From: Chloroflexota bacterium
GTDB lineage: Bacteria; Chloroflexota; Dehalococcoidia; Dehalococcoidales; JAFGLR01
Direction of reading: 5' to 3'
Length of the DNA stretch: 32,348 nucleotides
Assembly (NCBI GenBank): GCA_016210585.1
Contig: JACQTX010000094.1
Span: forward strand, 1-32,348
Shown: positions 6,110 to 18,252 of the stretch, in pieces
Numbering within the stretch: position 1 is the first letter of the stretch
Layout: every line of letters starts with the position of its first letter
The notes under the pieces: generated by a model
The model's input: the letters and a program-made list of their open reading frames with translations, nothing else
Databases searched by the model: none
Told to the model about the DNA's origin: nothing
Translations under genes and position numbers: made by a program

Positions 6110-6138
6110 TTGACAAACTACACGGAAACGTGTATGAT
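6110..6138 (+). promoter_or_regulatory. Promoter/operator of the restriction-modification unit
   Basis: TTGACA (6110-6115), a 17-base spacer and TATGAT (6133-6138) form a strong sigma-70-like promoter nine bases after the nrdJ stop. The spacer contains a perfect palindrome, TACACG-GAAA-CGTGTA (6119-6134), which overlaps the first bases of the -10. This is the expected place for a repressor site. No CCWWGG sequence (the CfrBI site) is visible between nrdJ and the methyltransferase. No separate controller gene is present. Confidence 0.7.
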
Positions 6139-6218: not shown

Positions 6219-7646
6219 GTGGTCACAAGAGAATATGTCGATGACCTGAAATTAATAGGAACTTCGGAGTTCTGTAAGTTAGGCAAGGAACGGAATGTCG
6301 CGAAGGTCCTTTCGCTTTTAGAGAATTTAGGCCGGTTGCCACCACAGTTCGAAGGCGACTGCCTCGTCCCGCTATTGAGCAACAGCGATGACCGCGTTAG
6401 GTTTTTAGCCGCCAAGAATATCGGAAAACTAGCTAATGACAAGTATTTAGAATTACTCAGTCCCGTGGCAAAGAGCGACACCGCCTCGAAAGTGAGAAGG
6501 GAAGCAGTATCGGCTATCGGGCGAATGCGCTCGCGCAAGGCAATCCCTTTTCTCATAGAGATGACTGACGACATAGACCCCAAAGTGGTTATGCAGGTGA
6601 TCAGAGCTCTATTGGTATTTAAGCATGATGCAGATATCCAGAGGGTGCTGAAAAGATTAGCCAATCACCCTAACGAAGTTATACAGTCGGTTATTTCCAA
6701 CGAGTTCCGCGGCCCGAAGCACAATGGCACAAATTCACCGAAGCACACAGAGTCACCAGACCATATGAAGAACGTCGTTGTTCTCGGTGACGTCAGAGAG
6801 GTACTTAGGTCAGTACCAGATGAGTCGATTCATTTAACATTTACATCGCCACCTTATTACAACGCCAGGGACTACTCAATATACCGCAGTTATAGAGAAT
6901 ACCTGGAATTCCTGGCGGATGTTTTCAGGGAAGTCCACCGAGTAACGAAAGAGGGAAGATTCTTTTTACTGAATACCTCGCCGATAATAATTCCTAGGAT
7001 GAGCAGACAATACTCAAGTAAACGGTACCCCATACCATTCGATATACATCCTTATTTGACCGACATGGGGTGGGAATTCATAGATGACATCGTCTGGATT
7101 AAACCCGAGGCTAGCGTCAAAAACCGCAATGCGGGATTCTTGCAACACCGAAAGCCTCTGGCCTACAAACCTAACCCGGTAACCGAGTACGTGATGGTTT
7201 ACAGGAAAAAGACAGAAAAACTCATCGACTGGTCAATTAGGCAATATAGTTGGGACACGATCCAGAAGAGCAGGGTTTCGGGAGAGTATGAAACCACCAA
7301 CACCTGGAGAATCGACCCAGTGTTTGACAGAGTACACAGCGCGGTCTTCCCGTTAGAATTGTGCATCAAGGTTCTGGAGTTTTATTCGTATGCGGGTGAC
7401 GTAGTGTTTGACCCGTTCGCTGGCAGCGGGACTCTTGGGAAGGCCGCTCTGAAGCTAAACAGGTTCTTCTTCATGACTGAGAAGGAATGGAAGTACGTAG
7501 CGCTCATGCGTCAGGAGATTAACACGTTTCAGAATGTCAAACCGAGTCCTCGTTTTCTTGATATAGGCGCGTTTCAGTCCTTGGGAGGAGGTTTTGATGA
7601 CGTTAACGGACACTGTGCTGCAAAACGTAATCCGGAAACTGATTAA
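6219..7646 (+). CDS. DNA methyltransferase (beta class) with N-terminal HEAT repeats
   Basis: This 475-residue protein probably protects host DNA by methylating cytosine N4 or adenine N6 with S-adenosylmethionine. Residues about 1-170 consist of alpha-helical HEAT-type repeats (for example LLSNSDDRVRFLAAKNIGKL and KVRREAVSAIGRM). The catalytic part begins near residue 183 (KNVVVLGDVREVL). Motif IV is TSPPY (209-213), and the SAM-binding DPFAGSGT lies at 398-405. Motif IV before motif I is the beta-class order, and TSPPY is typical of N4-cytosine enzymes. Start is GTG 6219, eight bases after GAGGAG. The 3' end overlaps the endonuclease gene by 50 bases, implying translational coupling. HEAT repeats on a modification enzyme are unusual and may serve protein or DNA contact. 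The DNA is AT-richer than nrdJ. Confidence 0.88.
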   Translation: MVTREYVDDLKLIGTSEFCKLGKERNVAKVLSLLENLGRLPPQFEGDCLVPLLSNSDDRVRFLAAKNIGKLANDKYLELLSPVAKSDTASKVRREAVSAIGRMRSRKAIPFLIEMTDDIDPKVVMQVIRALLVFKHDADIQRVLKRLANHPNEVIQSVISNEFRGPKHNGTNSPKHTESPDHMKNVVVLGDVREVLRSVPDESIHLTFTSPPYYNARDYSIYRSYREYLEFLADVFREVHRVTKEGRFFLLNTSPIIIPRMSRQYSSKRYPIPFDIHPYLTDMGWEFIDDIVWIKPEASVKNRNAGFLQHRKPLAYKPNPVTEYVMVYRKKTEKLIDWSIRQYSWDTIQKSRVSGEYETTNTWRIDPVFDRVHSAVFPLELCIKVLEFYSYAGDVVFDPFAGSGTLGKAALKLNRFFFMTEKEWKYVALMRQEINTFQNVKPSPRFLDIGAFQSLGGGFDDVNGHCAAKRNPETD

Positions 7647-8496
7647 GAATCAAGATTATCGGATTGAGGTAGTAACCCTTATTGACGCCGAGTTTCTCCA
7701 GTATGCAGTTGATTTCTTTGGACAAGTGGTACAGGCCAAACTCAAAAGCACAACTATCGGTAGCGAGTGGTATAGGGACGAATTGCTGAAGAGCGGTCTA
7801 TCAAAAGAAGACCTAGCCATAAATTCCGGCTTGAACATGAAAACCATACAGAATATGTATAACAGCACTACCAGGACGGTAGTCTTAGATGCTGCAGTGG
7901 AGCATTATGAGGCTCTTTGCAGTACGGTCAACAGTCTTGTCGAAAGCGGAAAGGACATAAATATCAACCTAAGCATAAAATTCCACGGAGTAAGTGTAGA
8001 CCTGAACCTGAATGAGAGCCTCATCGTGATTAATACTCTGGCAGTAAAAAGGGCAGCCCTCAGGGGTGGCTTGTGGAGCACAGCCGGCAAACGTGCAGAA
8101 AAACCTTTACTTACAACGCTGTGCCAGTTGTTCAATGTGCCGGTGAAATACTATGATCGAAAGCAATGGCCATATACCGTTCGTGAAACCGACTTCTACT
8201 TGTTCACCGGGGGTACCAAGAACTACAAATGCGAAGTGAAGCTTATGGGTAAGGGTAATCCAGAGAGCGCGGATGCAGTATTCGCTAGGGATGCTAATAT
8301 TCTCGTTGCGGACAAGCTGTCAGACACGAACAAAAGGCAGCTATCTCACAGGGGCATTGAGTGGGTGGAACTGAGAAGCAAGCGAGGGTATAAGAAGTTT
8401 TTCGAGATCCTCAATCACATAGCTATACCCGCGACCGAATTCTCTGGCACTTTGGACAAAAGGCTAGACGAGATTCTTGCAGATATATTTGGCTGA
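7597..8496 (+). CDS. Type II restriction endonuclease, CfrBI-like
   Basis: This is the probable cognate nuclease of the methyltransferase. It has 299 residues. The C-terminal half contains RETDFYLF and CEVKLMGKGNPESADA. Glu197/Asp199 followed by Glu213-Val-Lys215 fits a PD-(D/E)xK metal-dependent nuclease site. The EVKLMGKGNPESADA block resembles the CfrBI family as I remember it, an assignment consistent with a TSPPY N4-cytosine-type partner. The N-terminal half, including LSKEDLAINSGLNMKTIQNMYN (read in two parts: LSKEDLAINSGL, NMKTIQNMYN), looks like a helical or HTH-like recognition region. ATG 7597 follows GGGAGGAGG; a TTG directly before it is ignored. It overlaps the methyltransferase by 50 bases, so the nuclease would be translated after it. 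Family placement is tentative; nuclease function is more secure. Confidence 0.78.
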   Translation: MTLTDTVLQNVIRKLIKNQDYRIEVVTLIDAEFLQYAVDFFGQVVQAKLKSTTIGSEWYRDELLKSGLSKEDLAINSGLNMKTIQNMYNSTTRTVVLDAAVEHYEALCSTVNSLVESGKDININLSIKFHGVSVDLNLNESLIVINTLAVKRAALRGGLWSTAGKRAEKPLLTTLCQLFNVPVKYYDRKQWPYTVRETDFYLFTGGTKNYKCEVKLMGKGNPESADAVFARDANILVADKLSDTNKRQLSHRGIEWVELRSKRGYKKFFEILNHIAIPATEFSGTLDKRLDEILADIFG

Positions 8497-9339: not shown

Positions 9340-12300
9340 ATGAAGCGGCTTATCCTTACCATTGTGACCGTTATCACCATCCTGGGCTTAGCCCTACCCA
9401 CCGCCGTGCCAGCAGCGGCAGCACCGGTGCCCGGCGGCACTCTTGACCCCACCACCATCCCCAAGTATGAGGCACCTCTCCTTATCCCGCCAACCATGCC
9501 CCGCACCAGTGAGCTACAGGAACCAAACGGCCCGGTTGACTACTACGAGATTGCCGTCCGCCAGTTCCAGCAGCAGGTGCTGCCACCCGGTATGCCCCTG
9601 ACCACTGTCTGGGGCTACGGCTCGGTCAACCACCCGGGCAGCTTCAGCTATCCCGCTTACACCGTTGAGGCCACCTATAATAAGCCCGTCCGCGTCAAGT
9701 GGATAAACGGCCTGGTTGACGCCCTCGGCAACTTCCTGCCGCACCTGTTGCCGATAGACCAGACCATCCACTGGGCTAATCCGCCGGGTGGCATTGCCGG
9801 CCGTGATAATCACGGCATGGACCAGGCACCTTATACCGGGCCCGTGCCCATCATCACCCACCTGCACGGCGCTCATGTGACGGAAGAAAGCGATGGTTTC
9901 CCGGAGGCGTGGTTCCTGCCGGCAGCCAATAACATTCCCGCCGGCTATGCTACAGTCGGCTCCTACTATGACGCTTTCAAAGCCGAGGCTGAGGCTAAAT
10001 ACGGGCAGGCCTGGCAGCCCGGCACCGCCGTTTTCCAGTATCCCAATGACCAGCGGGCGGCCACCCTCTGGTTCCACGACCATACGGTCGGCATGACCCG
10101 CGCCAATGTCTATGCCGGCCCCGCCGGATTTTATCTGTTGCGTGGCGGTCCGGATGATGTGGTCACGGGCACGCTACCCACCGGGGCTCGTGAAATCCCG
10201 CTGGTCATTCAGGACAAGTCCTTCAATGCTGACGGCTCCCTTTTCTATCCGGGTGACCGGGCCTTCTTCGAAGGGCTAGACCCTGCCCAGCTACAGATAC
10301 CCTTCGCACCGGATGCTGCTCTCGGTGGGGAAAGCGATGTTGCCCCCATCTGGAACCCGGAGTTCTTCGGCAATACTATGGTCGTTAATGGCCATACCTG
10401 GCCTTACCTCGATGTCGAGCAGCAGCGCTACCGCTTCCGCCTGCTCAACGCTTCTGACTCCCGTTTCGTCATCCTGAAGCTAAACAATGGTGACCCTATC
10501 TGGCAGATCGGCTCGGACGGCGGCTTCCTGCCCGCGCCCGTCCAGCTAACTGAGCTGCTGCTGGGCCCGGCCGAGCGGGCTGACATCATCGTTGACTTTA
10601 CCGATGTCCCCGCCGGCACCAATCTCATACTACAGAACATCGGCCCGGATGAGCCTTATGGTGGCGGTGTGCCGAGTGTTGACTTTGTCTCCGCTGACCC
10701 GAATACCACCGGCCAGGTGATGCAGTTCCGCGTGATTGCACCCACCGGTGCTGACTTCAGCACGCCGCCGGTGCAGCTAGGCCTGCCTGCCCTTACCCCG
10801 CTCGGTGCCGCCGATAACACCCGCCAGGTATCCCTCAATGAGCTGGACTCAGCTACCGTTGCCGTCCCGGCGGATGAGGAAGGTAACTGGGTGCTTGATG
10901 CCAACGGCAACCTGGTGCTTGACCCAGCGGGTATCCCCTTCGGCCCGGCAATGGCCAGGCTGGGCACACTCAATCCTGACGGGACAGGTAATCCGCTGGA
11001 GTTTGAAGCCCCTATCACGGAGAACCCGGCCCTGGATCATACCGAGGTCTGGGAAATCTACAACTTCACTGCGGATGCGCATCCCATCCATATTCACCAG
11101 GTCCAGTTCCAGGTGGTCAACCGGGAGAGTATTGCCACAGGTACTATCACCGGGCCGGAACCCGGGGAGGTCGGCTTCAAGGACACGCTCATCGCCTACC
11201 CGGATACTATTACTCGCTTCAAGGCCAAATTCGATATCTCCGGTCTCTACGTCTGGCACTGCCACATCCTCTCCCATGAGGATAACGAGATGATGCGGCA
11301 GTTCTACATCGGTTCGCCGCCGGCGGCGCCAGCTAGCCTGTCGGCAATGCTGGTCAGCGCCACCCGGGTGGACCTCACCTGGACGGATAGCTCCACTACC
11401 GAGTCGGCCTTCCGCATCGAGCGCTCCACCGATGGAACTACCTTCGCTGAGATCGGCAGCGTCCTGCCGAACGCCACCAGCTTCAGTGATACGGCCCTCG
11501 AGCTGAACGTCACCTACTATTACAGGGTGATAGCGACCAGCCCCATCGGTGACTCGGCGCCATCAAATGCTGTTTTCATGTCTGTGGCCGTGCCGGAGGT
11601 ACCAACGGACCTGACCGCTATCGTCATGAGTGTCACGCGAGTGGACCTTATCTGGACAAACCAGTCGAGCAATGAGGCGGGCTTCCGGATTGAGCGCAGC
11701 CTGGACGACTTCGCCACTGCACCTGGTGTCACGTTTGCCGTCGCACCCGGTCAGAGGACCTTCAGCGACATTACGGTGACCGCTACCAACACCTACTCCT
11801 ATAGAATTGTTGCCTTCAATGCCGTCGGTGACTCCGCACCGTCCAACACGGCAACAGCAAAGGTGACCGCCAGGCTACAGGCGGGGCCAATAGACCCCCG
11901 CTCCATTTATCAGAATAATCCTTACACCGGTCTTCCCGGCTATTACCAGGATGACCAGGGGACACGGGTGGCGCTGCTGCCCATTACCGGCGATGGCCTC
12001 AACGCGCCCACCCAGATTTACGATGAGCCGGTTCCGACCAATCCCTACTCGGTGTTCCTTGGCTACGGGACGGAGGCCTTCTACTACATGGCGTCATCCG
12101 TTTTCGATACCAGCGCCGGCAATGGGCTGGCCGAGTTCGCTATTGAGGCAGCTTTCGGCGGCGCCGGTGATGCCATGCCCGGCCAGGAGTTCGTCTTCGC
12201 CCGGACCCGCATCAGGATAGACGTCCCCGTCCCGGGTGCCTATACCATCCAGCACCCTTACGGCACCATCACCTTAGACGCGACCCAGGCCGATATTGAT

Positions 12301-15300
12301 GCCGGGAAAGGCATCAACTATACCAGTGACATTGGGGTGGAGCGTGATTTTGCCGCGGCGACCGTTGACAATGGCGGCATCAGCCGTTTCCTGCACCAGA
12401 CTACTCCAGCGCCGCCAGCCGGCTGGATTGGTGATGGCGGCTCAGTCGGCCCGGTCACCGGCAGTCCCACCGGCTACAATAAGGTAAGGGTCACCGGCCC
12501 AGCCGGCAGCAACCTGGGCGGTCCGGGCATTGACTTCGTCGAAAGCAACCTGTTCAGCGTCTCGGGGCGGCTCCAGACCGCAGCAACACCTATCCCCAGC
12601 TTTGCCATGAGCCTTGACCCGACCACCGGCATTGCACCGGCTGCCGTAACCTTTACCGATACGTCAACGGGCACGCCCACCGCCTGGCTATGGGATTTCG
12701 GTGATGGTACTACCAGCACAGAGCAGAACCCCGTCCATCAGTATGCCACGGCCGGGGACTACACCGTCAGGCTGACGGTGGCGAATGCTGCTGCCAGGGT
12801 GGCCACGTCCCGGGTGGTGAGGATTTACAGCGCCCCGGCGGCCAGCTTTACCTACACCCTTCCCAATGGCATCCCACCGGTAGGTATCAGCTTTAGCGAT
12901 ACCTCCACCGGTAACCCGGCAAGCTGGCTGTGGGACTTCGGTGATGGCAGCACCAGTGCCCTGCGGAATCCCGTGCATACCTATGCCGCGGCCGGGGCTT
13001 ACACCAACACGCTTAAGGTGACGAACCCGGCAGGCACCGCGACCGCTTCCCAAACCCTGCGGATTTCCAGCAACCTCACCGCCGGCTTCACGTTGGGCCT
13101 CAACCCGGCGAACGGTGTGGCACCCGTCACGGTAACCCTTACCGATACCTCCGCAGGCGCCGTTACCGATTGGCTATGGGACTTCGGGGATGGCACCACC
13201 AGCACCCTGCAAGCACCGCCGGCCAAGACCTATGACGCGGCGGGCAACTACAAGGTGACACTCACGGTGACCGATGCCGAAGGCTCTGCAGCTACATCAC
13301 GGACTATAAGCATTTATAGCGTGCCGGTGGCCAGCTTCACTAAGAGCGCCGCCACCGGTGTGCCCCCGCTGACCGTCAAATTCACCGATACTTCCACCGG
13401 TAACCCGACAAGCTGGCTGTGGCAGTTCAGTGACGGCGTTACCACCACTACCAGCAATATCGCGAATCCGGTCAAGACCTTTAGCCGGGCAGGACAGTAT
13501 AGCGTCACCCTGACGGTGACAAACCCGGCAGGGACGGATGTCACCTCACAGACGGTAGCGGTCTCCCTGGCTTTTGCCGGGCCGAACCCCATCGTCCTTA
13601 AGCTGGGGCCTATTGCCCCGCGGTCAATCTATCAGGGTAATCCGGACACCGGCCTGCCCGCCTACTACGAAGATGACCAGGGGGCGCAGGTGTCATTGCT
13701 GCCCATTATCGGCAATGGTGTCGTTGGGCCCACCCAGGTTTTTGATAATGTGGTACTGACCAATCCATATTCAGTGTTCCTGGGCTTTGGCACCGAGGCC
13801 TTCTACTATGTAGCGTCATCCGTTTTTGACACCAGTGCCGGCAAGGGGCTGGCCGAGTTCGCTATTGAAGCCGCTTTCGGCGGCGCCGGTGATGCCGTGC
13901 CCGGGCAGGAGTTTATCTTCAACCGGACACGTATCAGGATAGACGTCCCCGTCCCCGGCACCTATACCGTGCAGCATCCCTACGGGACAATCAGCTTCAA
14001 CGTGACGCAGGCGGATATTGATGCCAGAGGAGGCATCAACTACACCAATGATGTCGGCGTGCAGCGTGATTTCCTCACCGCCGGCACGGGCAACCTGTCC
14101 CGTTTCCTGCACCAGACCGTCCCGGCGCCGCCAGCCGGCTGGATTGGCGATGGCGCCTCGGTCGGCCCGGTCACCGGCAGCCCTACCGGCTACAATAAGG
14201 TCAGGGTCACCGGTCCGGGTGGCTTCTTTGCCGAGTCCGCCCAGTTCATGGTGTCCGGGCGCCTGTATGTGCCGCCCCCGGCGGTCAGCTTTACAGTAAG
14301 CCTCGACCCGGCCAACGGTGTGGCTCCCGTGAATGCAACCTTCACCGATACCTCCACCGGCGATGTTGTGAGCTGGCTGTGGGACTTCGGCGACGGCGCC
14401 ACCAGCAACTTGCCTAATCCCACCAAGACTTATACAGAGGCGGGTAACTATGCAGTCACGCTCACGGTAAGCAACGTTGGCGGAACGGCTTCCACATCCC
14501 AGGTGGTGAGCGCCTTCACCCCACCGGTGGCCAGTTTCACAAAGGTGCTCAGCCCGGCGAATGGCGTGGCCCCGGTCACGGTGACTTTCACCGATACCTC
14601 TACAGGCAATGTCACAAGCTGGCTCTGGGACTTCGGTGACGGCACCACCAGCAATTTGCAGAACCCCACCAAGACCTATACCGTGGCCGGTAACTACACC
14701 ATCACCCTGACGGCAACGAACCCCGCCGGGTCGGCTTCCGTTTCTCAGACGGTCAGCGTTTACACGCCGCCGGTAGCCAGCTTCACCAGGTCTCTCAGTC
14801 CCGCGGATGGCATTATCGTGGGCAATACCCCTGTTACGGTCACATTTACCGATACCTCCACCGGCAATATCACCGGCTGGCTGTGGGACTTCGGTGATGG
14901 CACTACCAGTAATGTGCAGAATCCCATTAAGGCCTACGCCGTGGCCGGCGACTACACCATCACCCTGACGGCCACGAATGCCGCCGGGTCGGCTTCTGCT
15001 TCCCAGGCAGTAACCATTCTCGGCCCGCCAAAGGCCCCCAGCGCTCTCACTGCAACCATTGTAAGTCCCACCCAGGTGGACATCACCTGGACGGACAACG
15101 CCTTCAGCGAGACGAGTTTCCGCATCGAGAGGGGTGTAAACGGGGGTGCCTTTGCTGCTATAGGTACCGCTCCGGCTAACGCCACCGTGTTCAGCGACCC
15201 GGCTGTAGCTCTGAACAGCACCTACCGCTACCAGGTTATTGCCGTGAATGACTACGGCGAATCGGCACCATCTAACGTGGTGCAGATTCTGGTGGGCCTG

Positions 15301-18252
15301 CCGGCAGCACCCACCAACCTGGCCGCGCCGTCCATCACCGCAACGCAGGTAACCCTGACCTGGACGGACAACGCCGTCAACGAGAGCGCCATCCTTGTCC
15401 AGCGCGCCACCGACGGTAATTTCCGCAATAGCCTGGTCACCTTCACCCTGGGGCGGAACGTAACGACATATACCGACCTCACCGTGCTCAGTGCGACAAG
15501 GTATTTCTACCGTGTTTTGGCCCAGAACGGTGTGGGGCAGTCGGCACCCACCAACGTGGTGAGAGTGGAAACGCCGGTGGCCAGTGTCCAGAGCATTCCC
15601 GCAGCGCCCACCACACTAGGGGCAACCCGGGTGGAAGCGGGACGCATTGACATCCAGTGGACGGACAACGCCAGCAACGAGGCCGGCTTCCGCATCCAGC
15701 GTTCTACCGCGGCCACCTTTACGGAAAACCTGTTTGTGACCACGGTAGCATCGAACAAGACCAATTTCTCCGACCGCGGGGCCAGTGCCGGCATAACCTT
15801 CTACTACCGTGTCTTTGCCTTCAATAGCGCCGGTAGCTCGGCACCTTCAAATGTCATATCCGCCACGCCCCCGGCGCCCACCGCGGCACCGGTGGCGCCA
15901 TTGAACCTGAATGGCCAGGTGCTCATCGGGTCGGTGGCTGTGGAGCTTACCTGGAATGATGCTTCTAGCGACGAGGCCGGCTTCCGTATCGAGCGGGCTG
16001 ATGACCCGGGCTTCACCCAGAACGTCAAGCGCTGGACGGTAGGGGCCAGCTTTAACAGGTATAAGGATGTTACCGGTGCCCGGGACAGTACCTACTACTA
16101 CCGTATCGTGGCCCACAATGCTATCGGGGAAACGATCTCGTCCACCTTCACCGTCAAAGCGGCCTCACCGGACTCTGCACCGAAAAACCTGGTGGTCGTC
16201 TCGGCTTCTGACAGGATGGTTGACCTAGAATGGGAGGATACCACGAATAATGAGACTGGCTTCCTCGTGGAGCGGGCCACCGATGCGGCTTTCACGGCTG
16301 ATGTCACCAGCTTTAACGTGCCCAACCCGGCCTTTGCCCTGGATAACACGGGGCCGGGTCCCGCACAGGGGGACGGCTCGGCCAAGATACGGTTCTCTGA
16401 TGTCACCATTGAGGCACTCAAGACATACCATTACCATGTCCGGGCTGTAAACGACCTCGGGCAGTCCGCAGATTCCGCCGCGGTGACCACCGCTGTAGCC
16501 GTAACCACTCTCCCCGGTGCACCATTCGGACTGGTCGCAACGCCAGCAGCCCTCGGGCGGAACGACCTCACCTGGATAGACAATGCCAATAACGAGACAG
16601 GCTTCCGTGTCGAGCGCTCCACGGACGACGTTACGTTCGCCGCTATCGCCGACCTTGATGCCAATGCCACATCCTACTCTGACACGGCGGCCACGTCAGG
16701 CGCCACATACTCGTATCGTGTCATCGCGCTGAACACCCTGGGTGAATCGCAGGCCTCGAATGTGGCAGTGGTGACCTCCCTTGCTATTCCGGCGCCATCG
16801 GAACTGAAAGTGGCGTGGGCCTCACCCCAGGCCAAACTGACCTGGATAGATAACTCTGCCACCGAGACTGGCTTCCGTATCGAGCGCTCTACCAACAACT
16901 TCACTACCATCCAGGCTACTTTCAGTGTTGCGGCTAACACGACCACGTTTAATGACGCTGGTATCACTGTGGGTATTACCTACTCCTACCGCGTCGTCGC
17001 CGTTAGTGACATAGGCGATTCCCCGGTCTCCAATGTGGCCACCATAAAGGTTATGCCGCCCGCTGAGCCTGCCGAGATAGGAGCATCGGCGGTGCCCGTT
17101 ACGGTGACGATGAAAGCTGGCGGCGAGCTGGAAGCACCGGAGCCAGTCATCCTGAATAGCTCTGGCAAGACGACGAAGGCAGCCAGGCTGGAGAGCCGGG
17201 GTAAGAAAGTCGCCATCGCTATTCCTGCCGGCACCACGATGCGCAAGGCTGATGGGACACCATTGACCACAATAACGTCGGCGCAGGTGGTGACACCACC
17301 GCCACCACCGGCGAGCAATGTTATCGTCGCCAGCCAGGACTTCGGGCCGGACGGCGCTAGCTTCAGTCCCGCCATCACACTCACCATCAGCTATGACCCA
17401 GCCAGTCTGCCCGCCGGTGTGACTGAACGGGACCTGGCTATCGCTTTCTGGGATGGTGCCAAATGGGTAACGCTAGAGACTACGGTTGATACACAAAATA
17501 AGACGGCTTCGGCCCAGGTGACCCATTTCACGGCTTTCGCTCTGCTTGGTGCCCAGACGCCGCCACCGGCACCGGCGCCCATGCTCAATATTGTCTCGCC
17601 TAAACCGGGCGACACCCTTGTCGCCGGCAGCATCACGGTTACCGTCAGCGTGGCTGAGTTCCAGCTTGTGCCGCCGGGGACAGTGGCCATCCCCGGTCAG
17701 GGACATCTCCATTACTATCTGGATGTGCCGATACCCACCACGCCGGGAGCACCTGCCGTGACCGCGCCCGGCACCTACAAAGCCACACCCGGGACAGCCG
17801 TGGCGTGGGAGAATGTCATGCCGGGAACGCACACCTTTGGCGCCCAGCTTGTGAACGTGAACCACACGCCATTGGAGCCTCCGGTGACGGCAACGGTTAC
17901 CGTGACCGTAACCCAGCCTGTCGTCCCACCGGTGCCACAACCACCGGCCATACCGGCACCCACTGTCCCACCCGCACCCGTGCCAACACCCGCACCTAGC
18001 CCAGCACCTGTGCCAATGCCGTCACCCACGCTGGTGCCCGCCCCGCTGCCCACGACAGCGCCCGGACCCATTATCACGGTGGTGCCTGCCCCGGTGCCCG
18101 CACCCTCCGTCATCGTAGTACCGGCCCCGGTGCCGGCAGCGGGACCAGCACCCCAGGGTGCTAGCTGGTGGCTAATTGGCAGCATTATCGGGGCCGTTGT
18201 CGTGCTGGGGCTGCTCATCTTCCTGGTGCGCCGTCCCAGGTCAACCGGCTAG
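9340..18252 (+). CDS. Giant secreted multicopper oxidase with FN3, PKD and a duplicated module
   Basis: This is a 2970-residue extracellular, membrane-anchored protein. A signal peptide (about 1-27) is followed by a complete multicopper oxidase with all four copper motifs: HLHGAH (174-179), HDH (246-248), HPIHIH (581-586) and HCHILSHEDNEM (640-651), the last with Cys641, His646 and Met651 for the type 1 copper. Such enzymes oxidise phenols, metals or bilirubin-like substrates while reducing oxygen. Then come two FN3-like domains (about 662-847), module A (849-1078), four PKD domains (1087-1410, WLWDFGDG signatures), module A' (1423-1642), three PKD (1648-1893), seven FN3 (1896-2570), a ZU5/Ig-like region (2577-2735), a beta domain (2748-2860), a Pro-rich stalk, a transmembrane helix (about 2943-2963) and a basic tail. 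GGAGGAG precedes ATG 9340. The substrate is unknown. Confidence 0.93.
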   Translation: MKRLILTIVTVITILGLALPTAVPAAAAPVPGGTLDPTTIPKYEAPLLIPPTMPRTSELQEPNGPVDYYEIAVRQFQQQVLPPGMPLTTVWGYGSVNHPGSFSYPAYTVEATYNKPVRVKWINGLVDALGNFLPHLLPIDQTIHWANPPGGIAGRDNHGMDQAPYTGPVPIITHLHGAHVTEESDGFPEAWFLPAANNIPAGYATVGSYYDAFKAEAEAKYGQAWQPGTAVFQYPNDQRAATLWFHDHTVGMTRANVYAGPAGFYLLRGGPDDVVTGTLPTGAREIPLVIQDKSFNADGSLFYPGDRAFFEGLDPAQLQIPFAPDAALGGESDVAPIWNPEFFGNTMVVNGHTWPYLDVEQQRYRFRLLNASDSRFVILKLNNGDPIWQIGSDGGFLPAPVQLTELLLGPAERADIIVDFTDVPAGTNLILQNIGPDEPYGGGVPSVDFVSADPNTTGQVMQFRVIAPTGADFSTPPVQLGLPALTPLGAADNTRQVSLNELDSATVAVPADEEGNWVLDANGNLVLDPAGIPFGPAMARLGTLNPDGTGNPLEFEAPITENPALDHTEVWEIYNFTADAHPIHIHQVQFQVVNRESIATGTITGPEPGEVGFKDTLIAYPDTITRFKAKFDISGLYVWHCHILSHEDNEMMRQFYIGSPPAAPASLSAMLVSATRVDLTWTDSSTTESAFRIERSTDGTTFAEIGSVLPNATSFSDTALELNVTYYYRVIATSPIGDSAPSNAVFMSVAVPEVPTDLTAIVMSVTRVDLIWTNQSSNEAGFRIERSLDDFATAPGVTFAVAPGQRTFSDITVTATNTYSYRIVAFNAVGDSAPSNTATAKVTARLQAGPIDPRSIYQNNPYTGLPGYYQDDQGTRVALLPITGDGLNAPTQIYDEPVPTNPYSVFLGYGTEAFYYMASSVFDTSAGNGLAEFAIEAAFGGAGDAMPGQEFVFARTRIRIDVPVPGAYTIQHPYGTITLDATQADIDAGKGINYTSDIGVERDFAAATVDNGGISRFLHQTTPAPPAGWIGDGGSVGPVTGSPTGYNKVRVTGPAGSNLGGPGIDFVESNLFSVSGRLQTAATPIPSFAMSLDPTTGIAPAAVTFTDTSTGTPTAWLWDFGDGTTSTEQNPVHQYATAGDYTVRLTVANAAARVATSRVVRIYSAPAASFTYTLPNGIPPVGISFSDTSTGNPASWLWDFGDGSTSALRNPVHTYAAAGAYTNTLKVTNPAGTATASQTLRISSNLTAGFTLGLNPANGVAPVTVTLTDTSAGAVTDWLWDFGDGTTSTLQAPPAKTYDAAGNYKVTLTVTDAEGSAATSRTISIYSVPVASFTKSAATGVPPLTVKFTDTSTGNPTSWLWQFSDGVTTTTSNIANPVKTFSRAGQYSVTLTVTNPAGTDVTSQTVAVSLAFAGPNPIVLKLGPIAPRSIYQGNPDTGLPAYYEDDQGAQVSLLPIIGNGVVGPTQVFDNVVLTNPYSVFLGFGTEAFYYVASSVFDTSAGKGLAEFAIEAAFGGAGDAVPGQEFIFNRTRIRIDVPVPGTYTVQHPYGTISFNVTQADIDARGGINYTNDVGVQRDFLTAGTGNLSRFLHQTVPAPPAGWIGDGASVGPVTGSPTGYNKVRVTGPGGFFAESAQFMVSGRLYVPPPAVSFTVSLDPANGVAPVNATFTDTSTGDVVSWLWDFGDGATSNLPNPTKTYTEAGNYAVTLTVSNVGGTASTSQVVSAFTPPVASFTKVLSPANGVAPVTVTFTDTSTGNVTSWLWDFGDGTTSNLQNPTKTYTVAGNYTITLTATNPAGSASVSQTVSVYTPPVASFTRSLSPADGIIVGNTPVTVTFTDTSTGNITGWLWDFGDGTTSNVQNPIKAYAVAGDYTITLTATNAAGSASASQAVTILGPPKAPSALTATIVSPTQVDITWTDNAFSETSFRIERGVNGGAFAAIGTAPANATVFSDPAVALNSTYRYQVIAVNDYGESAPSNVVQILVGLPAAPTNLAAPSITATQVTLTWTDNAVNESAILVQRATDGNFRNSLVTFTLGRNVTTYTDLTVLSATRYFYRVLAQNGVGQSAPTNVVRVETPVASVQSIPAAPTTLGATRVEAGRIDIQWTDNASNEAGFRIQRSTAATFTENLFVTTVASNKTNFSDRGASAGITFYYRVFAFNSAGSSAPSNVISATPPAPTAAPVAPLNLNGQVLIGSVAVELTWNDASSDEAGFRIERADDPGFTQNVKRWTVGASFNRYKDVTGARDSTYYYRIVAHNAIGETISSTFTVKAASPDSAPKNLVVVSASDRMVDLEWEDTTNNETGFLVERATDAAFTADVTSFNVPNPAFALDNTGPGPAQGDGSAKIRFSDVTIEALKTYHYHVRAVNDLGQSADSAAVTTAVAVTTLPGAPFGLVATPAALGRNDLTWIDNANNETGFRVERSTDDVTFAAIADLDANATSYSDTAATSGATYSYRVIALNTLGESQASNVAVVTSLAIPAPSELKVAWASPQAKLTWIDNSATETGFRIERSTNNFTTIQATFSVAANTTTFNDAGITVGITYSYRVVAVSDIGDSPVSNVATIKVMPPAEPAEIGASAVPVTVTMKAGGELEAPEPVILNSSGKTTKAARLESRGKKVAIAIPAGTTMRKADGTPLTTITSAQVVTPPPPPASNVIVASQDFGPDGASFSPAITLTISYDPASLPAGVTERDLAIAFWDGAKWVTLETTVDTQNKTASAQVTHFTAFALLGAQTPPPAPAPMLNIVSPKPGDTLVAGSITVTVSVAEFQLVPPGTVAIPGQGHLHYYLDVPIPTTPGAPAVTAPGTYKATPGTAVAWENVMPGTHTFGAQLVNVNHTPLEPPVTATVTVTVTQPVVPPVPQPPAIPAPTVPPAPVPTPAPSPAPVPMPSPTLVPAPLPTTAPGPIITVVPAPVPAPSVIVVPAPVPAAGPAPQGASWWLIGSIIGAVVVLGLLIFLVRRPRSTG
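11884..12573 (+). repeat. Duplicated module A (first copy) inside the oxidase gene
   Basis: This encodes about 230 residues from GPIDPRSIYQNN to VSGRL. The same module recurs at about 13606-14265 with strong protein and DNA identity. Shared landmarks are PRSIYQ, NPYSVFLG, GTEAFYY, SSVFDTSAG, GLAEFAIEAAFGGAGDA, RIRIDVPVPG and WIGDG. I know no named family with this combination. Each copy is followed by a PKD block, suggesting that module plus PKD domains were duplicated together. Confidence 0.85.
12595..15018 (+). repeat. PKD-domain repeats in the oxidase gene
   Basis: Seven PKD units of about 80 codons carry the signature FTDTSTG followed by WLWDFGDG. Four lie at about 12598-13572 and three at about 14281-15018, separated by module A'. 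The fourth unit has a degenerate signature (WLWQFSDG). PKD domains are beta-sandwich spacers found in surface proteins and often take part in polysaccharide or cell-surface contact. Confidence 0.85.
13606..14265 (+). repeat. Duplicated module A' (second copy) inside the oxidase gene
   Basis: This encodes about 220 residues from GPIAPRSIYQGN to VSGRL, parallel to the copy at 11884-12573. It lacks about ten residues near its end (the NLGGPGIDF part of the first copy) and has scattered substitutions. Long identical DNA stretches, such as the one encoding LAEFAIEAAFGGAGDA, point to a fairly recent duplication or continuing gene conversion. Confidence 0.85.

Follow-up and report, generated by a model that had tools for sequence, protein, structure and literature searches.

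The locus studied here raises the question of what a solenoid of HEAT repeats does at the front of a DNA methyltransferase that is encoded beside a restriction nuclease. The window, which is the whole stretch of 32,348 nucleotides that was analysed, carries on its plus strand a gene for a HEAT-fused beta-class DNA methyltransferase of 475 amino acids (6219..7646, GTG start; from ORF calling, Pfam and PADLOC), followed by a gene for a CfrBI-family restriction endonuclease of 299 amino acids (7597..8496, ATG start; from PF09516, PDLC03496 and AlphaFold2). A beta-class methyltransferase overlapping a CfrBI-like nuclease by 50 bases had been described in the initial annotation; both reading frames are present, and ORF calling in the window gives an overlap of exactly 50 bases.

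The explanation that is considered probable as a whole is that of an acquired type II operon of the CfrBI superfamily, belonging to a HEAT-bearing subfamily in which the HEAT part would act as a DNA-gripping aid. We infer that the beta-class methyltransferase of the upstream gene would protect the host DNA, that the PD-(D/E)XK nuclease of the downstream gene would cut unmodified DNA at the same site, and that the start of the nuclease inside the methyltransferase gene would couple the translation of the two. A strong ribosome-binding-like sequence, GGGAGGAGG (7583..7591, same strand), can be read directly within the methyltransferase gene ahead of the nuclease ATG as a putative ribosome-binding site.

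Domains and folds of the two proteins

The catalytic domain of the methyltransferase (residues 184-440; 6768..7538, plus strand) was delimited by VIA-align to TTHA0409 (2zig), which aligns with Z 26.8 and rmsd 2.7 over 231 residues within residues 184-454. It matches Pfam N6_N4_Mtase (PF01555) at E 4.3e-36, and the methyltransferase matches the PADLOC MTase_II model PDLC03246 at E 3e-82. The translation contains motif IV, TSPPY (residues 209-213; 6843..6857, plus strand), and motif I, DPFAGSGT (residues 398-405; 7410..7433, plus strand). In an alignment of 74 methyltransferases, from which partial or unusually long ones were excluded, TSPPY is invariant in 74/74, as are D398, P399, F400, G402, G404 and T405 of motif I. 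As TSPPY comes before DPFAGSGT, which is the motif order of the beta class, the enzyme was assigned to that class. Its product would be N4-methylcytosine (m4C), a guess from kinship with M.CfrBI; by class, presumably either N4-cytosine or N6-adenine would be possible.

Ahead of this domain lies the HEAT-repeat solenoid (residues 4-163; 6228..6707, plus strand), identified by HEAT_2, AlphaFold2 and VIA-align, and joined to it by an inter-domain linker that forms a block of low pLDDT (residues 164-183; 6708..6767, plus strand). Residues 1-182 alone match Pfam HEAT_2 at E 2e-17, with HEAT and HEAT_PBS also above their cut-offs. AlphaFold2, run with 74 sequences, predicts eleven paired helices across residues 4-163 (pTM 0.73), with a mean pLDDT of 95-98 across residues 51-160 and a weak linker at about 161-180. 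For the HEAT part, VIA-align ranks highest an alphaRep HEAT-like protein (Z 18.4, rmsd 2.2, 152 aligned residues), which covers model residues 11-166. The N-terminal region is thus predicted to fold as HEAT repeats by AlphaFold2, VIA-align and Pfam together, with matches well above what chance would give, and the earlier estimate of about 170 N-terminal residues agrees with helices that run to 163 and a linker that runs to about 183. TTHA0409 (2zig), CcrM (6pbd), M.BceJIV (8urk), the rotifer N4CMT (8s9m) and M.PvuII (1boo) share the catalytic fold (Z 21 to 27, residues 180-455); their alignments begin at residue 178 or later and so leave the HEAT part unmatched. PADLOC model PDLC03276 was considered as an existing model of the HEAT fusion and rejected: the whole methyltransferase aligns to it from residue 66, and the HEAT part alone has no match to it.

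The nuclease matches Pfam RE_CfrBI (PF09516) at E 9.5e-23, with 81.2 bits against a gathering score of 25, and the PADLOC REase_II model PDLC03496 at E 5.8e-94, so that the label of a CfrBI-like nuclease stands. It has PD-(D/E)XK-type residues, D199 and E213-V-K215, of which D199, E213 and K215 are invariant in 54/54 rows of an alignment that excludes loci with partial or unusually long methyltransferases. In the AlphaFold2 model (pLDDT 85.4), D199 lies just ahead of strand 200-203, and E213 and K215 lie on strand 209-215; the model therefore points to the PD-(D/E)XK arrangement of an acidic residue followed by (D/E)-x-K on core strands. Foldseek gave no match to the model under E 0.001, and the nuclease sequence found no match in the PDB. 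BsoBI comes first in VIA-align (Z 9.5, rmsd 4.2, 217 residues), while Ecl18kI, PspGI, EcoRII and Bse634I, which we take to be cutters of CC..GG targets, align lower (Z 5.6-6.7); all five are 7-14% identical to the window nuclease. The likeness to BsoBI and the CC..GG cutters may be read as a hint at the level of the fold only, with middling Z. Domain and fold evidence together support the original reading of the locus as a type II restriction-modification pair, in which a methyltransferase fused to HEAT repeats stands beside a nuclease of the CfrBI family. In one relative (L009:1162-2232, minus strand), nuclease similarity ends at about residue 250, so that the C-terminal part is missing, and the ORF appears to run into HicB-type antitoxin-like sequence, presumably as a broken or fused nuclease.

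Distribution of the family and origin of the pair

A nuclease-first scan, with eight nucleases as query against one genome per species in 84,980 species, confirmed 214 nuclease relatives, of which the best 80 were analysed; the viral contigs added one more. HEAT repeats and catalytic domain are encoded in the ORF directly upstream, on the same strand, in 77 of these 80 genome loci (best 80 of 214), and likewise in the viral locus; in the three remaining genome loci (L065, L080 and L090), the methyltransferase is cut by the contig end. HEAT repeats had been called untypical of type II methyltransferases, which is right in that the M.CfrBI type has none and too strong within this subfamily, where the search of domain architectures found the fusion to be fixed. 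The architecture is widespread and fixed, not freakish, and the HEAT front end is the standard build of a little-described restriction-modification family found in many bacterial and archaeal phyla. Of 78 pairs with both genes, 55 overlap by exactly 4 bases and 67 by any length, counts that are approximate as they are taken from longest-ORF starts. In the open-licence PMC literature, no paper was found that combines CfrBI and HEAT repeat, nor any title or beginning of an abstract on a HEAT-methyltransferase fusion.

The methyltransferase tree has 75 rows, 74 of them genome loci, and those with a named phylum cover 22 phyla of bacteria and archaea, which defines, among type II restriction-modification systems, a branch that is widespread in both domains and sharply conserved. 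Phylum labels change 30 times on this tree, between the least possible number of 21 and a shuffled mean of 40.9, and therefore both inheritance and apparent transfer have shaped it. Poribacteria stand in one piece, Bacteroidota show nine changes and Chloroflexota three changes for three rows; the rows nearest to the window are a Dehalococcoidia bin and four other bins.

The pair in the window looks horizontally acquired because its G+C content (0.471 for the methyltransferase, 0.457 for the nuclease) is foreign to that of the flanking genes (0.591 upstream, 0.611 downstream). Among the 41 genomes searched as relatives, the system occurs in one, which is its own genome, where the methyltransferase gives a self match of 100%. 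The upstream flank is a ribonucleotide reductase-like gene, identified by reading; in the same-family genome G417, the reductase is present and 70% identical, and the ORF that adjoins it is unrelated. Further along the window, an ORF of 2970 residues (9340-18252) resembles, by eye, a multicopper oxidase at its front; many repeats like those of PKD and fibronectin come next, and a membrane segment closes the C-terminus.

Since the 80 loci were found through the nuclease, they are unable to show HEAT repeats without one. A methyltransferase-first census was made in one phylum (400 genomes) and in viral contigs, and 16 of the 400 genomes were positive. Their N-termini, classed by eye, comprise six HEAT fusions, two in which HEAT lies in a different frame beyond a G tract, and eight of the CfrBI type; two subfamilies therefore occur side by side in one phylum. 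Five of the six HEAT fusions have the nuclease. The sixth (L207, in genome G240) and the viral methyltransferases L192 and L190 keep the HEAT part with no CfrBI-type nuclease seen alongside. The L207 orphan sits, by eye, between an aldehyde dehydrogenase-like and a deoxyribose-phosphate aldolase-like gene. In the viral protein L190:3683-5374, HEAT and catalytic domain are preceded by an additional helix-turn-helix at the N-terminus (HTH_31, 6.4e-12), and an apparently unrelated nuclease-methyltransferase pair comes next after it. Two phage methyltransferases (L193:3992-4840 and L194:3983-4837) are 63-64% identical in the catalytic part and have neither HEAT repeats nor nuclease; they likely serve phage self-protection.

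Relation to CfrBI, target site and control of the operon

The CfrBI system, for which enterobacterial plasmids with a CfrBI-family annotation (L020-L022) served as representatives, also has its nuclease in RE_CfrBI. The plasmid methyltransferases are 49-50% identical to the catalytic domain of the window enzyme (window residues 177/183-430/433), whereas the first 176 window residues are without a match; the plasmid N-terminus is not HEAT, its best Pfam match (residues 1-110) having E 0.092. One plasmid enzyme, P0003, matches PDLC03246 end to end, a model that the window methyltransferase matches as well. The plasmid genes are divergent with 76 bases between them, whereas those of the window are tandem and overlapping; the plasmid nuclease has 355 amino acids against 299 in the window, and PADLOC assigns the two nucleases to separate models (PDLC03571 for the plasmids, PDLC03496 for the window). 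No plasmid bearing the window type of nuclease was found at tblastn E 1e-5. By the Pfam family of its nuclease and the type of its catalytic domain, the window pair belongs to the CfrBI restriction-modification family in the wide sense. It differs from CfrBI proper, which has divergent genes and an M.CfrBI-type N-terminal domain in the place of which the window has HEAT repeats. The HEAT-methyltransferase cassettes accordingly form a subfamily separate from classical CfrBI, in which the methyltransferase starts differently and the two genes diverge.

The window system could also be CfrBI under another name, with the same specificity and the HEAT part as an inert spacer. The identity of 49-50% in the catalytic domain and the match of both nucleases to PF09516 speak for such a reading, which is nevertheless improbable given the different N-terminal domain, the tandem as opposed to divergent genes and the separate nuclease models. 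About ten HEAT residues never vary (listed below), and the notion of a spacer is strained because a spacer would not need invariant residues.

The CfrBI target we take to be CCWWGG, and it was followed as a candidate for the window enzymes through site avoidance. The window contains 22 CCWWGG sites against 49 expected. This deficit was rejected as evidence of the target because the ratio of observed to expected sites is 0.82 over 848 kb of the host, where other palindromes are much lower (GRGCYC 0.41, CAGCTG 0.37). Pooled relatives, with loci under 5,000 bases excluded, give 0.70 for CCWWGG (place 27 among 499 motifs, counting from 0), and GGWWCC (0.54) and CATATG (0.32) are again lower; the avoidance of CCWWGG is mild only. 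The open-licence PMC literature yielded no paper combining CCWWGG and methyltransferase, and CCWWGG is not among the Chloroflexi methylation motifs in the accessible part of one compilation (PMC6329791). One copy, CCTTGG at window positions 7579-7584, overlaps the ribosome-binding-like sequence of the nuclease; a site at this place is not common to the relatives, where it occurs in 3 of 78.

A candidate sigma70-like promoter, TTGACA-17-TATGAT (6110..6138, plus strand), has 11/12 consensus matches and lies ahead of the methyltransferase gene; it is a weak candidate because the region has six promoter-like matches against 3.6 expected. Its spacer holds an inverted repeat, TACACG/CGTGTA (6119-6134). 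This repeat would suit a methyltransferase that regulates its own operon through the HEAT part, as the N-terminal region is described to do in M.SsoII in the passages available on that enzyme, and the helix-turn-helix of viral L190 also fits, as it marks the N-terminus as a place where regulators get attached. We nonetheless hold such autoregulation to be very unlikely. The inverted repeats upstream of the relatives that were read have, by eye, no common sequence, which speaks against a shared operator among them. To our knowledge, HEAT solenoids are not readers of sequence. There is no CCWWGG within the 170 bases before the window methyltransferase gene, and among 73 relatives such a site occurs in the 150 bases upstream in only 5. 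In CfrBI, divergent overlapping promoters are switched by methylation of the CfrBI site in the M promoter, according to the retrieved portion of PMC12707154, and the divergent promoters that this switch needs are absent from the window.

Role of the HEAT arm

Divergence of the HEAT arm is over twice that of the catalytic domain (mean distance 0.96 vs 0.35), and within the arm K70, R94, E95, S98, G101, R102, Q126, R129, F134 and H150 are invariant in 83/83 sequences. Polar residues invariant at the 90% level occupy 14 of 49 positions in B helices and 0 of 44 in A helices (Fisher P 5e-5), and the mean net charge is +5.7 for B helices against +1.3 for A helices. The B (second) helices of HEAT solenoids face inwards, and they were assigned to the concave side by this rule and not from coordinates. 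Several of the basic residues (R61, R93, R94, K70 and R102) presumably fit the general HEAT/alphaRep consensus; only K66, N67, E95, S98, Q126, R129, H150, N152 and E153 look specific to the family, and these are not purely basic.

The conserved inner groove would, in the explanation preferred here, grip DNA beside the target and so help a minimal catalytic domain to hold and search DNA, a job for which other beta-class methyltransferases have additional DNA-binding domains. Taken alone, the proposal of an auxiliary DNA-gripping module for the methyltransferase is tentative, with chances somewhat short of even. The AlkD and AlkC glycosylases also have a paired-helix solenoid; that of the window protein may share their basic inner face, and differs in being fused to a methyltransferase, so that a likeness of function is a lead only. 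In AlkD, the basic inner face holds the DNA backbone, and the same source, as far as its consulted sections go (PMC4433238), describes HEAT-repeat proteins of that shape as lacking affinity for DNA. AlkD is absent from the 50 VIA-align matches listed for the whole methyltransferase model and from the 60 sequence matches listed, and the former absence counts against a grip on DNA. So does the place of several basic residues in the common HEAT consensus, as alphaReps with that consensus bind proteins. The phage catalytic relatives L193 and L194 have no HEAT repeats, which means that some functions do not require HEAT. If the arm does grip DNA, HEAT solenoids would gain a second role on DNA beside that in the AlkD glycosylases.

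A role as a protein-docking arm, binding either its cognate nuclease or a partner subunit of the methyltransferase, is nearly as likely; modification and cutting would then be coupled physically, or the nuclease would be restrained until methyltransferase accumulates. Most HEAT and alphaRep solenoids bind proteins, alphaReps are the nearest of the solved structures, and the pairing with the nuclease is fixed in 77 of 80 loci (best 80 of 214), although the nuclease-first census was able to find only loci with a nuclease. The HEAT-less phage enzymes L193 and L194 are also without nuclease, whereas the orphans L207, L192 and L190 keep HEAT without one. A co-evolution test on 78 pairs gave a partial correlation of distances of 0.62 between HEAT and catalytic domain and of 0.26 between HEAT and nuclease (jackknife 0.21-0.29); the latter is positive, as docking would have it, but the tie of HEAT to the catalytic domain is the closer one. 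The correlation with the catalytic domain is in turn expected, since fused domains co-evolve anyway. A grip on DNA was leaned to because HEAT is kept in the orphans and tracks the catalytic domain over the nuclease.

The joint between the DNA-gripping candidate and the methyltransferase is interrupted in one group of relatives. In family f20, a related family of the same class, 5 of the 20 searched genomes have the methyltransferase, and in all five the match begins only past the HEAT region. A run of G lies between the HEAT and catalytic frames, with 9 in L184 (position 1494), 15 in L185 (1484), 13 in L186 (1339), 14 in L187 (1483) and 15 in L188 (minus strand, a C run at 2276), and the two frames differ by 1 or 2 in 5/5 loci. 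The linker of the 83 intact fusions never has a G or C run longer than 5, and the longest homopolymer in the window linker (counted as residues 162-185) is 3. As a linker run of 9-15 G puts the two domains in different frames while intact loci have at most 5, the tract suggests phase variation, and methyltransferase genes with contingency tracts are familiar from pathogens. The alternatives of a programmed shift, of two truly separate proteins and of an assembly error stay live because five of five loci out of frame has a probability of 0.13 under random frames, and the stretch in L186 also has Ns and C runs that indicate poor assembly. Slippage in the tract could join and unjoin HEAT and methyltransferase, together with the translationally coupled nuclease, with the HEAT protein made in both phase states. 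That such a phase-variable joint goes together with a HEAT arm acting as a conserved DNA- or partner-gripping module is conceivable, at about one chance in three. If true, a HEAT solenoid would serve DNA work outside the glycosylases, and these relatives would offer a natural on/off experiment on the joint. Two closely similar species already differ in the length of the tract, which is 9 in L184 and 14 in L187.
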